In this document: positions 45,287-53,959 of the stretch, piece by piece
How positions within the stretch are numbered: the stretch's first letter is position 1
Layout: each line of letters starts with the position of its first letter
Source: Ramlibacter sp. Leaf400
GTDB lineage: Bacteria > Pseudomonadota > Gammaproteobacteria > Burkholderiales > Burkholderiaceae_C
Direction of reading: 5' to 3'
NCBI RefSeq assembly: GCF_001424545.1
Contig: NZ_LMQL01000015.1
Coordinates: forward strand, 1 to 64,000
DNA: 64,000 nucleotides
Position numbers and translations under genes: made by a program
The notes under the pieces: generated by a model
What the model was told of the DNA's origin: nothing
The model's input: only the letters and a program-made list of their open reading frames with translations
Databases searched by the model: none

Positions 45287-45313
45287 AAAAAAAGCCGGGC
45301 ACATGGCCCGGCT
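45287..45313 (-). terminator. Rho-independent terminator, reverse strand
   Basis: On the reverse strand AGCCGGGC-CATGT-GCCCGGCT forms an 8-bp stem followed by a run of seven T. It lies ~155 bp beyond the stop of the Asp-box lipoprotein gene at 45467 and immediately after the convergent PBP gene. The T-run is on the reverse side only, so it serves the lipoprotein transcript. The stem core matches that of the second lipoprotein's terminator. Confidence 0.75.
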
Positions 45314-45342
45314 CAAGCTCCCTTTCGCTTCCCTGATCTCTT

Positions 45343-45454
45343 CGGCATTCCCACCTTCATCCGTCATTCCCGCCTTCATCCGTCATTCCCGCGAAGGCGG
45401 GAATCCAGTGCTTCCCTGGGCATCCCTGGATCCCCGCCTGCGCGGGGATGACGG
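45343..45454. repeat. REP-like palindromic repeat element
   Basis: Three tandem partial copies of a CGTCATTCCCGCCTTCAT-type unit (45343-45397) lead into a nested inverted repeat: CATTCCCGCGAAGGCGGGAATCCAG-like arm at 45384-45408 and its near-complement at 45426-45450. Each arm also folds on itself (ATTCCCGC/GCGGGAAT). This is the CATTCCCGC-type REP/BIME sequence found many times in beta- and gammaproteobacterial genomes. It lies between the lipoprotein stop and its terminator. Confidence 0.8.
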
Positions 45455-45466
45455 GCGATGTGACAG

Positions 45467-47065
45467 CTATCGAATCGTGAACGCGCCCCCCTCGTGGTGC
45501 GTGACCGTGAACCGGCCATTGCCCTGGTAGGTCAGCTGCAGCACCTGCCCCTGGCCGCCGCCGATCGAGCCCAGGGTGCCGCCGGAGGTGCGGTTGCCCT
45601 GCGAGGTGTAGAGGCGCCCGCCCGAGCCGTTGGCGCCGGTGTCGCCGACCACGATCCAGTTCCCGTCGAAGGACAGGCTGACGCCGCGGTACCAGCGGTT
45701 CTCGCCGTGCCAGTTCCAGTCGGTGCCGCCGTCGGTGCTGACAAAGGTGTAGCCGGTGTAGGCGTAGGTGTCGTCGCGAGGCTCGAGCGCGCTGACCACC
45801 TGGCCGTTGCCCGAAACCGCCAGCCCCGACCAGTTGCTGAAGCCGAACCGCATCGTCCAGGTGACGCCGCCGTCGTCGCTGATCCAGGGGTTGCCGCCGT
45901 TGTCGATGGCCGCCATGCGCCCCCCATCGGCACTGGCGGCCGCGAAAGCCCAGTTGCCGTTGCCCTGGCGGCGCGTCCAGGTGGCGCCGCCGTCGGTCGA
46001 CACGTGGATGCCCTGCAGCGAGGGCGCCTGCGAGTAGAAGGACGCGACGGCCACCAGGCGCTGCCCGTCGCGCGAGCCCGCCACGGCGCGCCAGTCGCCG
46101 CCGGCCGTGCCGGGCACGACGCTGAAGCTGGCGCCGCCGTCGACCGACCGGTGGATCGCGCCGCCGACGGCCGTGGCCACGATGCGCTGGCCATCCCCGG
46201 AGATGTGCACGCCGCTCCACGGCTGGGCCGTGCTGTTGGCGGCGGTCCAGGTCTGCCCGTGGTCGGACGAAACGTGGATGGCGCCGCCCGTGGCCACGGC
46301 GGCCAGGCGGCTGCCTTCCTCGTTCATCGCCACCCAGGTCCAGTTGGCCGTGGGGGCGCTGCTGCGCGTCCAGCTGGCGCCGCCGTCCTGCGACAGGTAG
46401 AGCCCGCCCGGGCTGGCCACCGCGGCGATGCGGTTGCCGCTGGCCGACGAGGCGGTGGCGACCCAGTTCTGCAGGGGCGCGGCCGCATCGACCGTGCGCG
46501 GCGTCCACACCGTGCCGGGCGTGACGTTGCCGGGCACCCCGACCGTCTCGACCCACTGCAACGGGTTCTGCGCCAGGCGCCAGGCGGCGCCGCTCTGTCC
46601 GCTGACCCGGATGCGGTCACCGGCTTGGAGGCATTCGTTGGCCGGCAGCGTGATGGCCACGCTGGCCGAGCTGGACGTCACCGTGTACTCGCCGTTCGCT
46701 GCGGCCTGGAGGGCCGCGCCCGCGACGCTGCCGCTGTTGGGTGCCGCGCAGGTGGCGGGTGAGGGCGCGGGCGCCGGGGAGGGGGCCGGCGCAGGCGCAG
46801 GCGGGGCAGGCGGTTGAGGTTCCGGAGCGGGGGACGGTGCGGTCGATGGCGCGGGGGCATCGGGCCGCGTTTCGGGCTCCGGGGCGGGCGTCAGCGCGCC
46901 GGCGCTTGCGGAAGCCGAGACCGGGGTGGCGCCGGGGGTGGCCGCGGCCGTATCGCCGCCTCCACCACCGCCACCGCCACCGCATGCACTCAGCCACAAG
47001 GCCGCCATCGCGGACAGGGCGGCCACTCGGGTCTTCTTGCCGCTGTCCGTACTCGTTTCGGTCAT
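45467..47065 (-). CDS. Asp-box (BNR) repeat lipoprotein with polyglycine tether
   Basis: 532 residues from ATG 47065. The hydrophobic AALSAMAALWLSAC ends in a lipobox; nine glycines follow the lipidated Cys. A ~70-residue Ala/Pro-rich linker leads to a small region (~110-165), then a beta-propeller-like array with six Asp-box motifs (S-x-D-G-G-x-x-W type, e.g. SQDGGASW, SSDHGQTW, STDGGATW, SDDGGVTW). Asp boxes mark sialidase/Ycf48/sortilin-type propellers, but no sialidase Arg triad is apparent. Probably surface or periplasmic. Paralogous to the next gene upstream. Confidence 0.8.
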   Translation of the reverse strand: MTETSTDSGKKTRVAALSAMAALWLSACGGGGGGGGGDTAAATPGATPVSASASAGALTPAPEPETRPDAPAPSTAPSPAPEPQPPAPPAPAPAPSPAPAPSPATCAAPNSGSVAGAALQAAANGEYTVTSSSASVAITLPANECLQAGDRIRVSGQSGAAWRLAQNPLQWVETVGVPGNVTPGTVWTPRTVDAAAPLQNWVATASSASGNRIAAVASPGGLYLSQDGGASWTRSSAPTANWTWVAMNEEGSRLAAVATGGAIHVSSDHGQTWTAANSTAQPWSGVHISGDGQRIVATAVGGAIHRSVDGGASFSVVPGTAGGDWRAVAGSRDGQRLVAVASFYSQAPSLQGIHVSTDGGATWTRRQGNGNWAFAAASADGGRMAAIDNGGNPWISDDGGVTWTMRFGFSNWSGLAVSGNGQVVSALEPRDDTYAYTGYTFVSTDGGTDWNWHGENRWYRGVSLSFDGNWIVVGDTGANGSGGRLYTSQGNRTSGGTLGSIGGGQGQVLQLTYQGNGRFTVTHHEGGAFTIR

Positions 47066-47134
47066 CTCTCGTTTTCTCCCGGGCGACATCGCCTGGGAAC
47101 GATTCTTCGGCCCCGCTGCAGAGCCTGGCGTGCG

Positions 47135-47149
47135 CCGACTGAGCCATTG
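47135..47149 (-). promoter_or_regulatory. Shared 15-bp motif upstream of first Asp-box lipoprotein
   Basis: The reverse strand reads CAATGGCTCAGTCGG, 70 bp before the start at 47065. An identical copy precedes the second lipoprotein gene (48636-48650). No other match was noticed by eye in the window. Role unknown; could be a promoter element or operator. Confidence 0.4.
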
Positions 47150-47226
47150 CGCGTAGGCGCCCGAAGCTCGTCCGTGTCGGGCTTGCGCCGACCCCGTTGG
47201 AGCTATTGCCGGGGCCCAAACGAAAA

Positions 47227-47248
47227 AGCCGGGCCTTTCGGCCCGGCT
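47227..47248 (-). terminator. Rho-independent terminator, reverse strand
   Basis: AGCCGGGCC-GAAA-GGCCCGGCT on the reverse strand, a 9-bp perfect stem with a GAAA tetraloop followed by five T (to 47223). It lies ~43 bp beyond the stop of the second Asp-box lipoprotein gene. Strong classical terminator; the stem core equals that at 45287-45313. Confidence 0.85.
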
Positions 47249-47290
47249 TGTCTCCCTCCCTGGGAGCGCGACAGCGTTATTTCGACTCGA

Positions 47291-48478
47291 TCACGGGGCC
47301 GTGACGGACCCGCTGGACGTGTAGAGCTGGCCCGTGGCGCCGAAGAAGGTGCCGGCAGCCAGCAGCAGTCGGGCTGCGTCGCCGCTGATGGACACGGCGC
47401 GCCAGTTGGTCTCGACCGGGGGCAGCGTGGCCAGCGGGGCGAAGCTGGTGCCACCGTTGGTGGACAGCAGCACGGTGCCGGCGCCGGACATCGTGGCGAC
47501 CATGATGCCGCCGTCGGCGGTCATGTCGATGCTGGTGTAGGCGCCGCTCGTCGCGTTGCCCTGCACCCAGGTGGCGCCACGGTCGCGGGACGTGTACAGG
47601 CCGGTGCTGGTGCCTGCGAAGTCGGTGTTCCCGGCGACGGCGATGGTGTTGCCGTCCTCGGACACCGCCACGCGGTACCAGCCGTCGGCGATCGCGCCGG
47701 CGCCGATGTTGACGGGCAGGGCCGCGAAGGTCAGGCCGCCGTCGGTCGACAGGTGCACGTTGCCGTCCTGCGCGGCGGCGACCACGACCGAACCATCGGC
47801 CGAGCTGTCCACGGCGCGCCAGGGCGCGGGTGCGGCGGCGCTGCCACCGGCGACCGTGAAGGTCGCGCCACCGTCCTGCGAGACGTAGACGAGCCCGTTG
47901 GCCGGGTTCGCCCCGACGCCCGTGTCGACCATGGTGACCGCGACGATGCGCTGGCCGTTCTGGGACATGGTCACGGATTCGTAGGCCAGGTTGCCGCCGG
48001 CATCGCCGACCTGCGGCGGGTTCACCGCGCCGTCGATCTTGGTCCAGCTTGCGCCACTGTCAGTCGACCGGTACATCCCACCGCCGAAGCCCACCGCGAC
48101 CATCGTCGTGCCGTCGAGGCTCATGTCCGCCGAAATCCAGTTGTCGACGGGCAGGGTGCTGTCCACGAAGGTCGCGCCGCTGTCGCGGGACACGAAGACG
48201 TTGCCCGGGATGGACGTGGCGAGCTGGACGGTGCCGCTCGGGTTCATGGTCACCCAGTGCCAGGTGTTGGCGGCCAGGGACGTCGCCGTCCAGGCCAGCG
48301 GTTGTGCCGGGGGCGCCGGCACCGGGGCCGGTGCGGGTGCGCCTACCGGTGCAGGTGCCGGGCTCGGTGCTGCCGCGACATCGTCGCCACCACCACCTCC
48401 TCCGCACGCCGTGAGCCAGAGTGCGGCCACGGTAGCCGTCACGCAGACCCTGCTCTTTGTCGTTGCTGCTTTGAACAT
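47291..48478 (-). CDS. Second Asp-box (BNR) repeat lipoprotein with polyglycine tether
   Basis: 395 residues from ATG 48478, with TTGGAGG 7 bases upstream. The signal VTATVAALWLTAC ends in a lipobox, six glycines follow the Cys, then a ~35-residue Ala/Pro linker and a propeller-like region with six Asp boxes (SRDSGATF, STDSGASW, SQDGGATF, STDGGLTF, SRDRGATW, STNGGTSF). It shares architecture, upstream motif and terminator stem with the gene at 45467, so it is a tandem paralogue. No enzymatic signature recognised. Confidence 0.8.
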   Translation of the reverse strand: MFKAATTKSRVCVTATVAALWLTACGGGGGGDDVAAAPSPAPAPVGAPAPAPVPAPPAQPLAWTATSLAANTWHWVTMNPSGTVQLATSIPGNVFVSRDSGATFVDSTLPVDNWISADMSLDGTTMVAVGFGGGMYRSTDSGASWTKIDGAVNPPQVGDAGGNLAYESVTMSQNGQRIVAVTMVDTGVGANPANGLVYVSQDGGATFTVAGGSAAAPAPWRAVDSSADGSVVVAAAQDGNVHLSTDGGLTFAALPVNIGAGAIADGWYRVAVSEDGNTIAVAGNTDFAGTSTGLYTSRDRGATWVQGNATSGAYTSIDMTADGGIMVATMSGAGTVLLSTNGGTSFAPLATLPPVETNWRAVSISGDAARLLLAAGTFFGATGQLYTSSGSVTAP

Positions 48479-48783
48479 TCGGTGCCTCCAAGTTGCGATT
48501 GATGACGCGGTCGATACACGTCGCAACGGATGGTCGGTTCTCCCATTGATCGGCGCTTTCCCATTTGGCGCGCCTGCTTGTAGGAGAACGCCGTTCGAGC
48601 AGCTCTACCGATTGCAAGTTGTGTTTTTGCATGGCCCGACTGAGCCATTGAACAACGACAAGCACTGCTGAGGCCGTTCGCGCGCAGTACCTCACGCGGG
48701 CGGCGGCGAAGTTGAAACAAGGTTCGAAAAGCCGTCCATGTCGCGTTGCGCTGATGATTTCATGTCGGCGGACCGATGAACCC
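48479..48783. other. 305-bp divergent intergenic region
   Basis: This gap separates the start of the second Asp-box lipoprotein from the lytic transglycosylase. It is somewhat less GC-rich than its surroundings. It holds the second copy of the 15-bp motif (48636-48650). No protein-coding ORF with a convincing ribosome site, and no other regulatory element, is recognised here. Confidence 0.5.
48636..48650 (-). promoter_or_regulatory. Shared 15-bp motif upstream of second Asp-box lipoprotein
   Basis: Reverse-strand CAATGGCTCAGTCGG, identical to 47135-47149, here 158 bp before the lipoprotein start. Flanking bases also partly match (CATGC versus CACGC just downstream). The distance to the start differs between the two genes, so it is not simply a ribosome-site remnant. 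Confidence 0.4.
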
Positions 48784-51147: not shown

Positions 51148-51270
51148 CGCAACCGGGCGGGGCGTTGCGATTCCCGACAGCCTGTTACGCCCGCCTCCTA
51201 CACGCCCGATGGGCGGCCGCCGCCTACTCTCGCGCTACGAAAGCGCCGGATGGCGCGTGGGAGACGAGGA

Positions 51271-51585
51271 ATGCAGGACGCTCAGCTCAGGCCGCGATCA
51301 GCCGAACGCTTCGGGCTGGCGCTGCCCATCACGATGGAGGGCGAGGAGTGCTCCACGCACGACATCAGCGCCACCGGCGTGCTGCTGGAGTCGCCGGCGG
51401 CGCCGCCGCTGGGCGCCCAGGTCTCCCTGATGCTGCAGTACCGCGCAGGCGGCCGTGATTTCAGCCTCGGCTGCACCGGCGAGGTGGTGCGGGTGGAACG
51501 CCACGGCGAGAACTTCAACATCGCGGTGCGGCTGGCCGAACCCCTGTTCCAGGACGCGGTGCCGCAGGAAGGCGGCACCGGCTGA
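51271..51585 (+). CDS. PilZ domain protein
   Basis: 104 residues from ATG 51271. A single PilZ domain: an RSAERFG segment near residue 8-14 corresponds to RxxxR, and THDISATGVLLES contains the (D/N)xSxxG motif. It binds cyclic di-GMP by family knowledge; the second Arg of RxxxR is uncertain. AGGA lies just before the ATG. First of two tandem PilZ genes. Confidence 0.82.
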   Translation: MQDAQLRPRSAERFGLALPITMEGEECSTHDISATGVLLESPAAPPLGAQVSLMLQYRAGGRDFSLGCTGEVVRVERHGENFNIAVRLAEPLFQDAVPQEGGTG

Positions 51586-51640
51586 CGCCGGCGCCGCGGG
51601 AAAAGGGCAGGAACGCGCCGCGCGCGCGAGGAGAACGAGG

Positions 51641-51958
51641 ATGGCGATGGTGGAACCCAGGGTGGTGGTGCCGCTGCGGCGGCGCCAGGAAAAACGCGGC
51701 GCGGAGCGCTTCGAGATGGAGATGCCGCTGTCGGTGGGCAACGGCGAGGGCGGCGTCACCCGCGACCTGAGCGTCAGCGGCCTGTCATTCACCTCCCGCC
51801 AGCCCTACGTGGTGGGCGAGGCGATCGACGTCACCGTGGAATACCTGTTGGATGGCCACAACTTCCCGTTGCGCTGCCGCGCCACGGTGGTGCGCTGCGA
51901 CCCCTGCGCGGGCGGTTTCACCATCGGCGCCCGCCTGAACACCGCCTTCGTCGAGTAG
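51641..51958 (+). CDS. PilZ domain protein
   Basis: 105 residues from ATG 51641 with GAGGAG upstream. RRQEKRGAERFEME includes RxxxR-type basic residues, and TRDLSVSGLSFTS is the (D/N)xSxxG motif. A likely c-di-GMP receptor and paralogue of the preceding PilZ gene. Fifty-five bp separate the two. Confidence 0.85.
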   Translation: MAMVEPRVVVPLRRRQEKRGAERFEMEMPLSVGNGEGGVTRDLSVSGLSFTSRQPYVVGEAIDVTVEYLLDGHNFPLRCRATVVRCDPCAGGFTIGARLNTAFVE

Positions 51959-52645: not shown

Positions 52646-53959
52646 TCACAGGAACTCCACCCGCTCGGCGATCAGCACGTCGTTCGCGACGCGCGAACCG
52701 GTCACCCGCACCCGCCGCCCGTTGCGCAGGTCGGCCGCCGTGCCGTCCTCGAACACCACGCCCGTGCCGCCGGCATCGATGTCCTGGCCCTGGATCCTGA
52801 ACTCCGACGCCGAGCGGAACGAGCTGATGTTGCCGCGGGCGCTGTAGTCGTTGTCGCCGGAGCCGCTGCCGGAATTGCTGCCCGAGCCGCCGCCGTTTCC
52901 GTTGCCGTTCCCATTGCTGTTCCCGTTGCCGTTCCCCGGTTGGGGCTCGGGCGCGACGGGTTCGGGTTCGGGCGCATCGCGCAGCTTCAGCCGGGTGGCG
53001 GCCAGCACGCCGCCGGCCCAGGCGCCGGCCACTTCGACCCGCGCGCCGACGCCCAGGGTCGACAGGCGACCGGTCACCCGCGCCTTCGACGCATCGACCG
53101 CCACGCCGTCGACCTGCATGGCCGCCAGGCTGGTGTAGCGCGTGACCAGGCCTTCCACCGAGATCCGTTCGCCATCGGTCGGCCGCAGCGGGTACCAGGG
53201 CTCCACCTCGGCGCGCGACAGCGGGTCGGCGATCGCGTTGCCGCGGATGCGCACCAGCTGGCCTTCGAGCTGGTCCAGCCGCAGGCCTGCGGCCTCCAGC
53301 AGCGCCGCGATGATGCCGATGCGGCGTCCGCCGATCTGCAGGATCGCCTCGCCGATGTCCACGAATTGCACCGAGCCTGAGAGCACCGGCGTTCCCTCCG
53401 CCGCGAGCCGTTCGATGCGGGAGGCGCGCAGGCCGGGTCCGGATTCCGGCAGGCCGTAGACCTGCACCGGATCGCCCGGCTGCAGATCGTGCAGGGCCAT
53501 CAGCCCGCCGGCGAAGACCGTGGTCGCGTCGATGTAGATCGGTGTGTTCCACACCTTCATGATGCCCAGGCCCGCGTCCACCCATTCGACCGTTCCGCGC
53601 ACGTCGGCGGACGAGAAGACGGTGTTGGCCACGCCCGTCAGCAGGTCGTCGCTGACCAGGCCGCGCACCTGCACGGTCATGCCCAGCTTGAGGGTGTCCG
53701 CATCGACCAGCGTGAGCGCGGCGCGGTCGGTGTCGAAGTGCACGCCGTTGACCAGGATGCTGCCGAAGCCGGTGATCGATCCCACGGCCGCCGACGTGAT
53801 GCCGGTGCCGCCCGATCCCACGCCCTCGCCCGAGATCCCGGTGCCGCCCGAGCCGATGCTGGCGACGTCGCCGAAATCGCCGCCGCCGCCACCGCCCCCG
53901 CCGCAACCGGCAACGACGACAGCCGCCGGCACGGCGGCGATGAGGGTGCGGCGCTTCAT
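52646..53959 (-). CDS. DUF5666 lipoprotein with polyglycine after the lipobox
   Basis: 437 residues. IAAVPAAVVVAGC is the lipoprotein signal, followed by eight glycines and two GSGGTGI repeats. Several ~60-residue beta modules (GSVQFVDIGEAILQIGG..., SVEGLVTRY..., VTGRLSTLGVGARVEVAGA) are DUF5666 OB-like repeats. A Gly/Asn/Ser-rich linker (NGNGNSNGNGNGNG) lies near residue 345. Translationally coupled to the upstream DUF6502 gene by ATGA. Probably outer-membrane or periplasmic; function unknown. Confidence 0.82.
   Translation of the reverse strand: MKRRTLIAAVPAAVVVAGCGGGGGGGGDFGDVASIGSGGTGISGEGVGSGGTGITSAAVGSITGFGSILVNGVHFDTDRAALTLVDADTLKLGMTVQVRGLVSDDLLTGVANTVFSSADVRGTVEWVDAGLGIMKVWNTPIYIDATTVFAGGLMALHDLQPGDPVQVYGLPESGPGLRASRIERLAAEGTPVLSGSVQFVDIGEAILQIGGRRIGIIAALLEAAGLRLDQLEGQLVRIRGNAIADPLSRAEVEPWYPLRPTDGERISVEGLVTRYTSLAAMQVDGVAVDASKARVTGRLSTLGVGARVEVAGAWAGGVLAATRLKLRDAPEPEPVAPEPQPGNGNGNSNGNGNGNGGGSGSNSGSGSGDNDYSARGNISSFRSASEFRIQGQDIDAGGTGVVFEDGTAADLRNGRRVRVTGSRVANDVLIAERVEFL

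Follow-up and report, generated by a model that had tools for sequence, protein, structure and literature searches.

What does a tract of glycines directly after the lipidated cysteine do for a bacterial lipoprotein, and what is the role of the β-propeller that it precedes? These questions are raised by a locus of Ramlibacter sp. Leaf400 (RefSeq assembly GCF_001424545.1, contig NZ_LMQL01000015.1), of which positions 1 to 64,000 (64,000 nucleotides; hereafter referred to as the window) were analyzed. Two tandem genes on its minus strand, gene A and gene B, encode lipoproteins in which a polyglycine tract links the lipobox cysteine to an Asp-box propeller. On balance we favor the reading, with some confidence, that both are surface lipoproteins predicted to be exported by the type II secretion system (T2SS) and its GspN protein, and that they would display a non-catalytic propeller for binding a ligand.

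The tandem pair and its homologues

The features of the two genes, together with a third polyglycine lipoprotein of the window, are as follows.

47291..48478, minus strand: gene A, Asp-box propeller lipoprotein of 395 amino acids, C-G6 (open reading frame, Pfam, AlphaFold)
45467..47089, minus strand: gene B, Asp-box propeller lipoprotein of 540 amino acids (532 from the ATG at 47065), C-G9 (open reading frame, Pfam, AlphaFold)
48404..48406, minus strand: lipobox Cys codon of gene A (site 48387-48406, TGC then GGN)
48386..48403, minus strand: six-glycine tract of gene A, a putative sorting motif (function suggested by PMC12802150, for another genus)
46982..46984, minus strand: lipobox Cys codon of gene B (C-Gly scan)
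46955..46981, minus strand: nine-glycine tract of gene B, a putative sorting motif (likewise suggested by PMC12802150, for another genus)
47300..48301, minus strand: β-propeller of gene A, residues 60-393 (AlphaFold, VIA-align; matches seven-bladed propellers)
45593..46513, minus strand: β-propeller of gene B, residues 184-490 (AlphaFold, Foldseek, VIA-align; matches seven-bladed propellers)
46493..46735, minus strand: small β domain of gene B, ahead of the propeller and covering about residues 110-190 (strands in the AlphaFold model; blocks of 111-190 at pLDDT 85-95)
45470..45592, minus strand: C-terminal β tail of gene B (alignment; co-occurs with the small N-terminal domain)
52646..53959, minus strand: third polyglycine lipoprotein, DUF5666, C-G8 (Pfam, E = 1.8e-27)

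The lipobox of gene A reads LTAC and is followed by six glycines and that of gene B reads LSAC and is followed by nine, with an Ala/Pro linker in both proteins. The two are paralogous, 101 of 328 aligned columns (31%) being identical. A relaxed motif detected six Asp boxes in gene A and five in gene B, in whose translation a sixth, degenerate box can be read (STDGGTDW). Both proteins exceeded the 27-bit cut-off of the Pfam BNR/Asp-box family PF02012 (36.5 and 38.2 bits), while Sortilin-Vps10 was above its cut-off for gene A only and slightly below it for gene B. Thus, the pair of six-box paralogues set out in a preliminary description of the window, made from the letters alone, was confirmed with one box degenerate, as was its third, DUF5666-bearing polyglycine lipoprotein.

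Within the genus, searches with gene A in 61 genomes and gene B in 15 yielded 23 homologues, defined by a phmmer match of the propeller parts at E 1e-10; several genomes have two or more paralogues, and 21 regions were read. C-G4 or longer is present in all 21 of the 23 whose N-terminus is intact. The small domain and the tail, which gene A lacks, are both present in 14 and both absent in 8 of the 22 aligned members; this occurrence as a unit suggests that one domain may be built from both protein ends. A search of plasmids gave no match to gene A and one Variovorax replicon (1.24 Mb) for gene B, whose protein shows 36.5% identity over 64% of gene B, C-G6 and six Asp boxes. Among the distant loci checked, Asp boxes lay in the frame read only at L032, L049/L062 and L116 (L and G denote our loci and genomes), and proteins from L032 and L049 (genus and order) and L116 (a planctomycete) have no C-GG. 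A literature search at the title and abstract level, which largely did not cover subscription papers, found no polyglycine Asp-box lipoprotein.

Glycine tracts, GspN and a proposed route of export

A scan of the whole genome with TGY(GGN)6 gave 33 sites (reversed pattern, 2), and 31 of them encode lipoprotein-like C-G(6-10) proteins; the discarded frames (L091 and the first of L101) have no start or signal peptide. Two or more different glycine codons are used in 30 of the 31 tracts, GGT making up 25% of tract codons as against 7% of the other glycine codons of these genes. This mixture shows that the tract is not just one repeated triplet and indicates that it is maintained at the protein level. 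The residue following the tract is Asp in 11 and Ser in 9 proteins (20/31).

Pfam matches at E 1e-4 included PhoX, GH8 (2), two weak GH18 matches that stayed under the cut-off, two GDSL matches of which one did so as well, CAP, S41 and GSDH (glucose/sorbosone dehydrogenase); the propellers Kelch/galactose oxidase, NHL (5), BNR (3) and DUF5122 (below cut-off); and DUF3443 (2), DUF5666 (2) and DUF4382. Six proteins had no match, and at this threshold none of the 31 matched the Bam, Lol, Pal or Lpt families. Judged by these matches, the set is typical of secreted proteins, with many hydrolases and propellers among them. The two DUF3443 proteins (L093 and L096, on C10 and C11 of G000; E below 1e-107) are C-G7 and C-G6 lipoproteins, so that the DUF3443 family may share the polyglycine export route.

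The tract is therefore common throughout this genome, and three polyglycine lipoproteins within ~8.5 kb are no system by themselves, since the 31 are spread genome-wide. Of the special local arrangement described earlier, the cis elements proved real and partly conserved (see below), but a genome-wide export route is a likelier shared partner than any local system.

Such a route has been described in Acinetobacter. According to PMC12802150 (2025), Gly/Ser- or Asn/Asp-rich residues after the Cys are needed for surface export by T2SS/GspN; InvL (CGGGGDGY) and similar lipoproteins require GspD and GspN to reach the surface, and InvL was no longer exported once its signal peptide, its Cys and the following seven residues came from Pal. 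About 19 Acinetobacter lipoproteins are listed there, Burkholderia and Shewanella appearing as sequence logos only. In the same source, InvL and FilF of A. baumannii and PulA of Klebsiella have the same lipobox Cys and Gly-rich motif, with GGG at P2'-P4'; our tract-then-D/S order resembles the published CGGGGDGY and CGGGSSDD (Table 1), the published list is likewise rich in hydrolases and in proteins of unassigned function, and T2SS genes with gspN are found here too. With 6-10 Gly in 31 proteins, the tract here exceeds the published one in length and purity, the fold differs, and the dependence on T2SS is a prediction for this genome.

Genes gspC, D, E, G, I, K, L and N are clustered in the genome (L115), the GspN family T2SSN scoring 83 bits against a cut-off of 29.6. 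We compared counts of KSNTGY(GGN)5 sites (C-G5; these are sequence sites, not proven lipoproteins, and relatedness is handled in part only) with the presence of GspN (PF01203) and GspL (PF05134) across the order, in 250 genomes with a completeness of 95% or more. GspN matches below the Pfam cut-off were scored as lacking (G074, G264 and G276), and GspL was counted at E 0.001 (107 genomes, 102 above cut-off). The mean count was 5.43 in the 116 genomes with GspN and 1.52 in the 134 without it, and the reversed-pattern control gave 2.06 and 1.66, respectively (area under the curve, AUC, 0.84 vs 0.58). The effect of GspN persisted (t 9.9) when a regression also took in genome size and the control count, and among 20 families with both states the count went up with GspN in 17, down in 2 and was tied in 1. 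GspN is present in 29 of the 30 genomes with at least 8 matches, the exception having 12 control matches. The present genome has the highest count of the 250 (36; control 3). In 229 genomes of the class outside the order, a test that omits three family-f1 genomes and scores GspN below cut-off as lacking (G367, G372, G387, G414 and G427), the means were 3.31 with GspN and 1.30 without (size- and control-adjusted t 5.0).

The experimentally tested Acinetobacter motif, the gspN-bearing cluster and this association support the preliminary suggestion that the tract is a localization or export signal, bearing in mind that the motif was described for another genus (PMC12802150). With this support, the export part of our reading is plausible. 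The lipidated protein would be kept off the Lol route by its Gly tract, which would also mark it for GspN; GspN would pass it on to the T2SS, and it would leave through the GspD secretin. Its lipid might then anchor the protein in the outer leaflet, with the Gly/Pro-Ala stalk holding the propeller off the membrane, where it could bind a peptide, protein or glycan, much as Ycf48 (fold match) and sortilin (Pfam match) bind theirs.

Several observations weigh against this reading. The tract shared by the homologues is partly a selection effect, because the first queries were whole proteins including signal and linker. GspH and GspJ were seen solely as N-methylation motifs, and GspF and GspM lay outside the check. 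In the order, the milder exceptions G049 and G192 have 5 and 6 matches without GspN. GspN and GspL occur together in 103 genomes and are both missing in 130, with GspN only in 13 and GspL only in 4, and the latter two groups each average 2.0 matches; as the two nearly always go together, the association may be due to the entire T2SS. Outside the order, the control also rises with GspN (1.93 vs 0.68), the AUC is weaker (0.76 vs 0.68 for the control), and the families divide into 4 up, 2 down and 2 ties. Among the class genomes with at least 6 matches, 6 of 26 have no GspN above cut-off; G409 and G511 (8 matches each) and G490 (6) have no GspN match and zero control matches, and are either counter-examples or users of another route. 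Every one of the 37 genus genomes searched has GspN, a result consistent with the reading but without discriminating power. In PMC12802150, the reverse swap left Pal unexported, the motif was necessary but not sufficient, and GGG/GDD is cited as a signal for Lol avoidance and inner-membrane retention in Pseudomonas.

That cited signal favors the alternative that the tract retains the propellers at the inner membrane, facing the periplasm. From sequence alone retention and the T2SS route are indistinguishable, because the latter also needs Lol avoidance, and the CAP and S41 domains among the 31 can be periplasmic too. We nevertheless consider retention quite unlikely: several of the 31 are hydrolases of extracellular type, none has a Pfam match to the Bam, Lol, Pal or Lpt families, and plain retention would not predict counts that track T2SS/GspN across genomes. 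Alternatively, the proteins could be ordinary outer-membrane lipoproteins sorted by Lol, with the tract as a flexible stalk and the association a reflection of large GC-rich genomes. A disordered linker after the Cys helps lipoprotein sorting, and the association does partly follow genome size and composition, as the differing class-wide control indicates. This explanation also appears unlikely, as the association survived adjustment for size and control in both order and class and held within most families of the order. A search for Slam (PF04575) gave no match in this genome, and control genomes gave none either.

Propeller fold and the question of catalysis

Structure prediction, proposed in the preliminary description as a check, gave a propeller in each protein. 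The mean pLDDT of the AlphaFold models was 88.4 for gene A and 84.1 for gene B, and the VIA-align matches shown (Z 28.5-30.4, rmsd 2.5-3.0, 270-294 residues) were all propellers. The best ones are seven-bladed, a number that refers to the matched structures. Foldseek ranked the dispase autolysis-inducing protein (DAIP), GH74 and Ycf48 high; these lie outside the best 50 VIA-align rows, which are filled by other propellers, and this is no argument against them.

Ycf48 (PDB 5ojr, 2xbg), a photosystem II assembly factor that binds a D1 peptide, has the same single Asp-box propeller and is among the top Foldseek matches at 14-17% identity. DAIP of Streptomyces (PDB 5fzp, 6fhp), from a Gram-positive source, provides the top Foldseek matches of gene B (18-20% identity), and by its PDB title was solved in complex with a thermolysin fragment; to our knowledge, it has no polyglycine lipoprotein stalk. 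Sortilin/Vps10, a eukaryotic receptor propeller, shares the Asp-box repeats (Pfam above cut-off for gene A only) but is ten-bladed, whereas the matches here are seven-bladed. Matches of gene B to AcfD/SslE were confined to the signal and the low-complexity linker and were left unused.

Asp boxes on a propeller are also shared with GH74 xyloglucanases and GH33 sialidases, and the propellers could thus be glycosidases, either sialidase-like or GH74/F510_1955-like. Gene A matched a xyloglucan hydrolase (GH74) in phmmer with E 3.6e-9, GH74 is among the Foldseek matches, and both proteins matched NCBIfam NF045728 ('F510_1955 family glycosylhydrolase') at E 5e-15. These matches scored 55.2 and 55.4 bits, far under the cut-off of 175. 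In GH74 enzymes the active site lies between two propellers in tandem, whereas each protein here has one propeller-sized region. The (F/Y)RIP motif that stands ahead of the Asp boxes in GH33 sialidases is absent from all 22 aligned family members. Moreover, an alignment of these 22 (A1, which omits L086, truncated at a contig end) has 14 invariant columns, all W, G, S or A with no acidic residue among them; near-invariant columns add the lipobox, the linker, Asp-box residues and two Arg. The only invariant acidic residue in a second alignment (A2, 20 of the 23 homologues), D299, lies within an Asp box. Glycosidase Asp boxes lie on the face opposite the active site, and the GH33 propeller is six-bladed, according to PMC2716378.

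The statement that no enzyme signature is seen mostly held, the sialidase motif being absent and NF045728 far under its cut-off, although the gene A sequence resembles GH74. Despite that resemblance, a sialidase or GH74 identity was judged unlikely on the missing motif and the NF045728 score, and we regard the glycosidase explanation as a whole as very improbable. The invariant columns, together with the absence of the RIP motif, make a non-catalytic role in binding a peptide, protein or glycan the better guess.

Cis elements, neighboring genes and significance

The tandem genes share the following upstream and downstream elements.

48636..48650, minus strand: 15-bp upstream motif CAATGGCTCAGTCGG, 157 nt before gene A, exact copy
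47135..47149, minus strand: 15-bp upstream motif CAATGGCTCAGTCGG, 69 nt before the gene B start at 47065, exact copy
47226..47249, minus strand: intrinsic terminator after gene A (stem and T tail)
45292..45314, minus strand: intrinsic terminator that follows gene B and lies between convergent genes (stem and T tail)

Both elements had been noted in the preliminary description, and both are real. In the whole 4,585,682-base genome, CAATGGCTCAGTCGG is exact only at genes A and B; two mismatches allowed six further sites, and the reversed pattern one. It recurs in two of the syntenic relatives: an exact copy lies at -158 in L081 (genome G013), while L068 (G024), where two family genes stand in tandem, has one copy at -132 (2 mismatches) and another at -70 (3 mismatches). 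The stem of the terminator, AGCCGGGC..GCCCGGCT, is found with its T tail 3' of both genes; there is one copy in 204 kb of other loci of this genome, and 274 kb of other genus loci contain two, in L068 and L081, where they directly follow the syntenic homologues. No Rfam element scored above any gathering score between 44000 and 55000.

The 15-mer probably serves as an operator or promoter element, which would allow the paralogues to be expressed jointly. Motif and terminator might instead be functionless leftovers of a tandem duplication: genes A and B are tandem paralogues, the syntenic upstream regions are related DNA (a 30-mer is shared with L081), and, of the 21 family members compared, 16 have no match to the 15-mer with fewer than 4 mismatches. 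These 16 include the syntenic orthologue of gene B in L076 (G009; 4 mismatches), a case that tells against joint control, and a three-way alignment with longer upstream windows failed to align the L068 copy. We find this explanation possible but doubtful, as the 15-mer has stayed exact while the paralogous proteins diverged to the identity given above, its distances in L081 and L068 are matched, and CAATGGCT is invariant in an alignment of five upstream regions with 57% mean identity.

No neighbor is common to all 21 regions compared, and there is accordingly no conserved partner gene among them. The window, L068, L072, L076 and L081 share subsets of the genes for PBP, methyltransferase, DUF2889, HTH and DUF5666 proteins; L067 and L083 are mutually syntenic, and L074, L085 and L086 have cluster f20 in common. 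These shared neighbors reflect synteny only. Cluster f1, of exported proteins that we take to resemble tripartite tricarboxylate transport receptors, has 10 members in 6 of the 21 regions (the window, L070, L071, L072, L078 and L082), a recurrence that is probably mere abundance in the lineage. Between gene B and its terminator, a stretch at 45343-45460, TCATTCCCGCGAAGGCGGGAATCCAG ... ATCCCCGCCTGCGCGGGGATGACGGG, with a 19-nt direct repeat at 45343-45380, looks like a dispersed palindromic repeat. On the plus strand, the overlapping frames 51250-51585 and 51455-51958 encode a PilZ domain each, the start of the second being uncertain.

Taken together, genes A and B belong to a genus-wide propeller family within a polyglycine lipoproteome, and the tandem pair has cis elements in common. 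The fold is known and so, by comparison, is the kind of export signal; what is new is their combination in a large, putatively surface-located polyglycine lipoproteome. We see evenly balanced chances for the broader proposal that, across the order (probably Burkholderiales), a long pure Gly tract would serve as the GspN/T2SS address label of a surface lipoproteome, and that the Asp-box propellers would be an expanding, co-regulated binding family using it. The count association would extend the GspN sorting motif from Acinetobacter to an order and provide a genome with 31 likely clients, turning a vague polyglycine tether into a testable export signal, and the genus-wide Asp-box propeller family gains a putative role at the cell surface. 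If this is true, a surface proteome, here of ~31 proteins and rich in β-propellers, could be read from DNA by a scan for C-G(5 or more).

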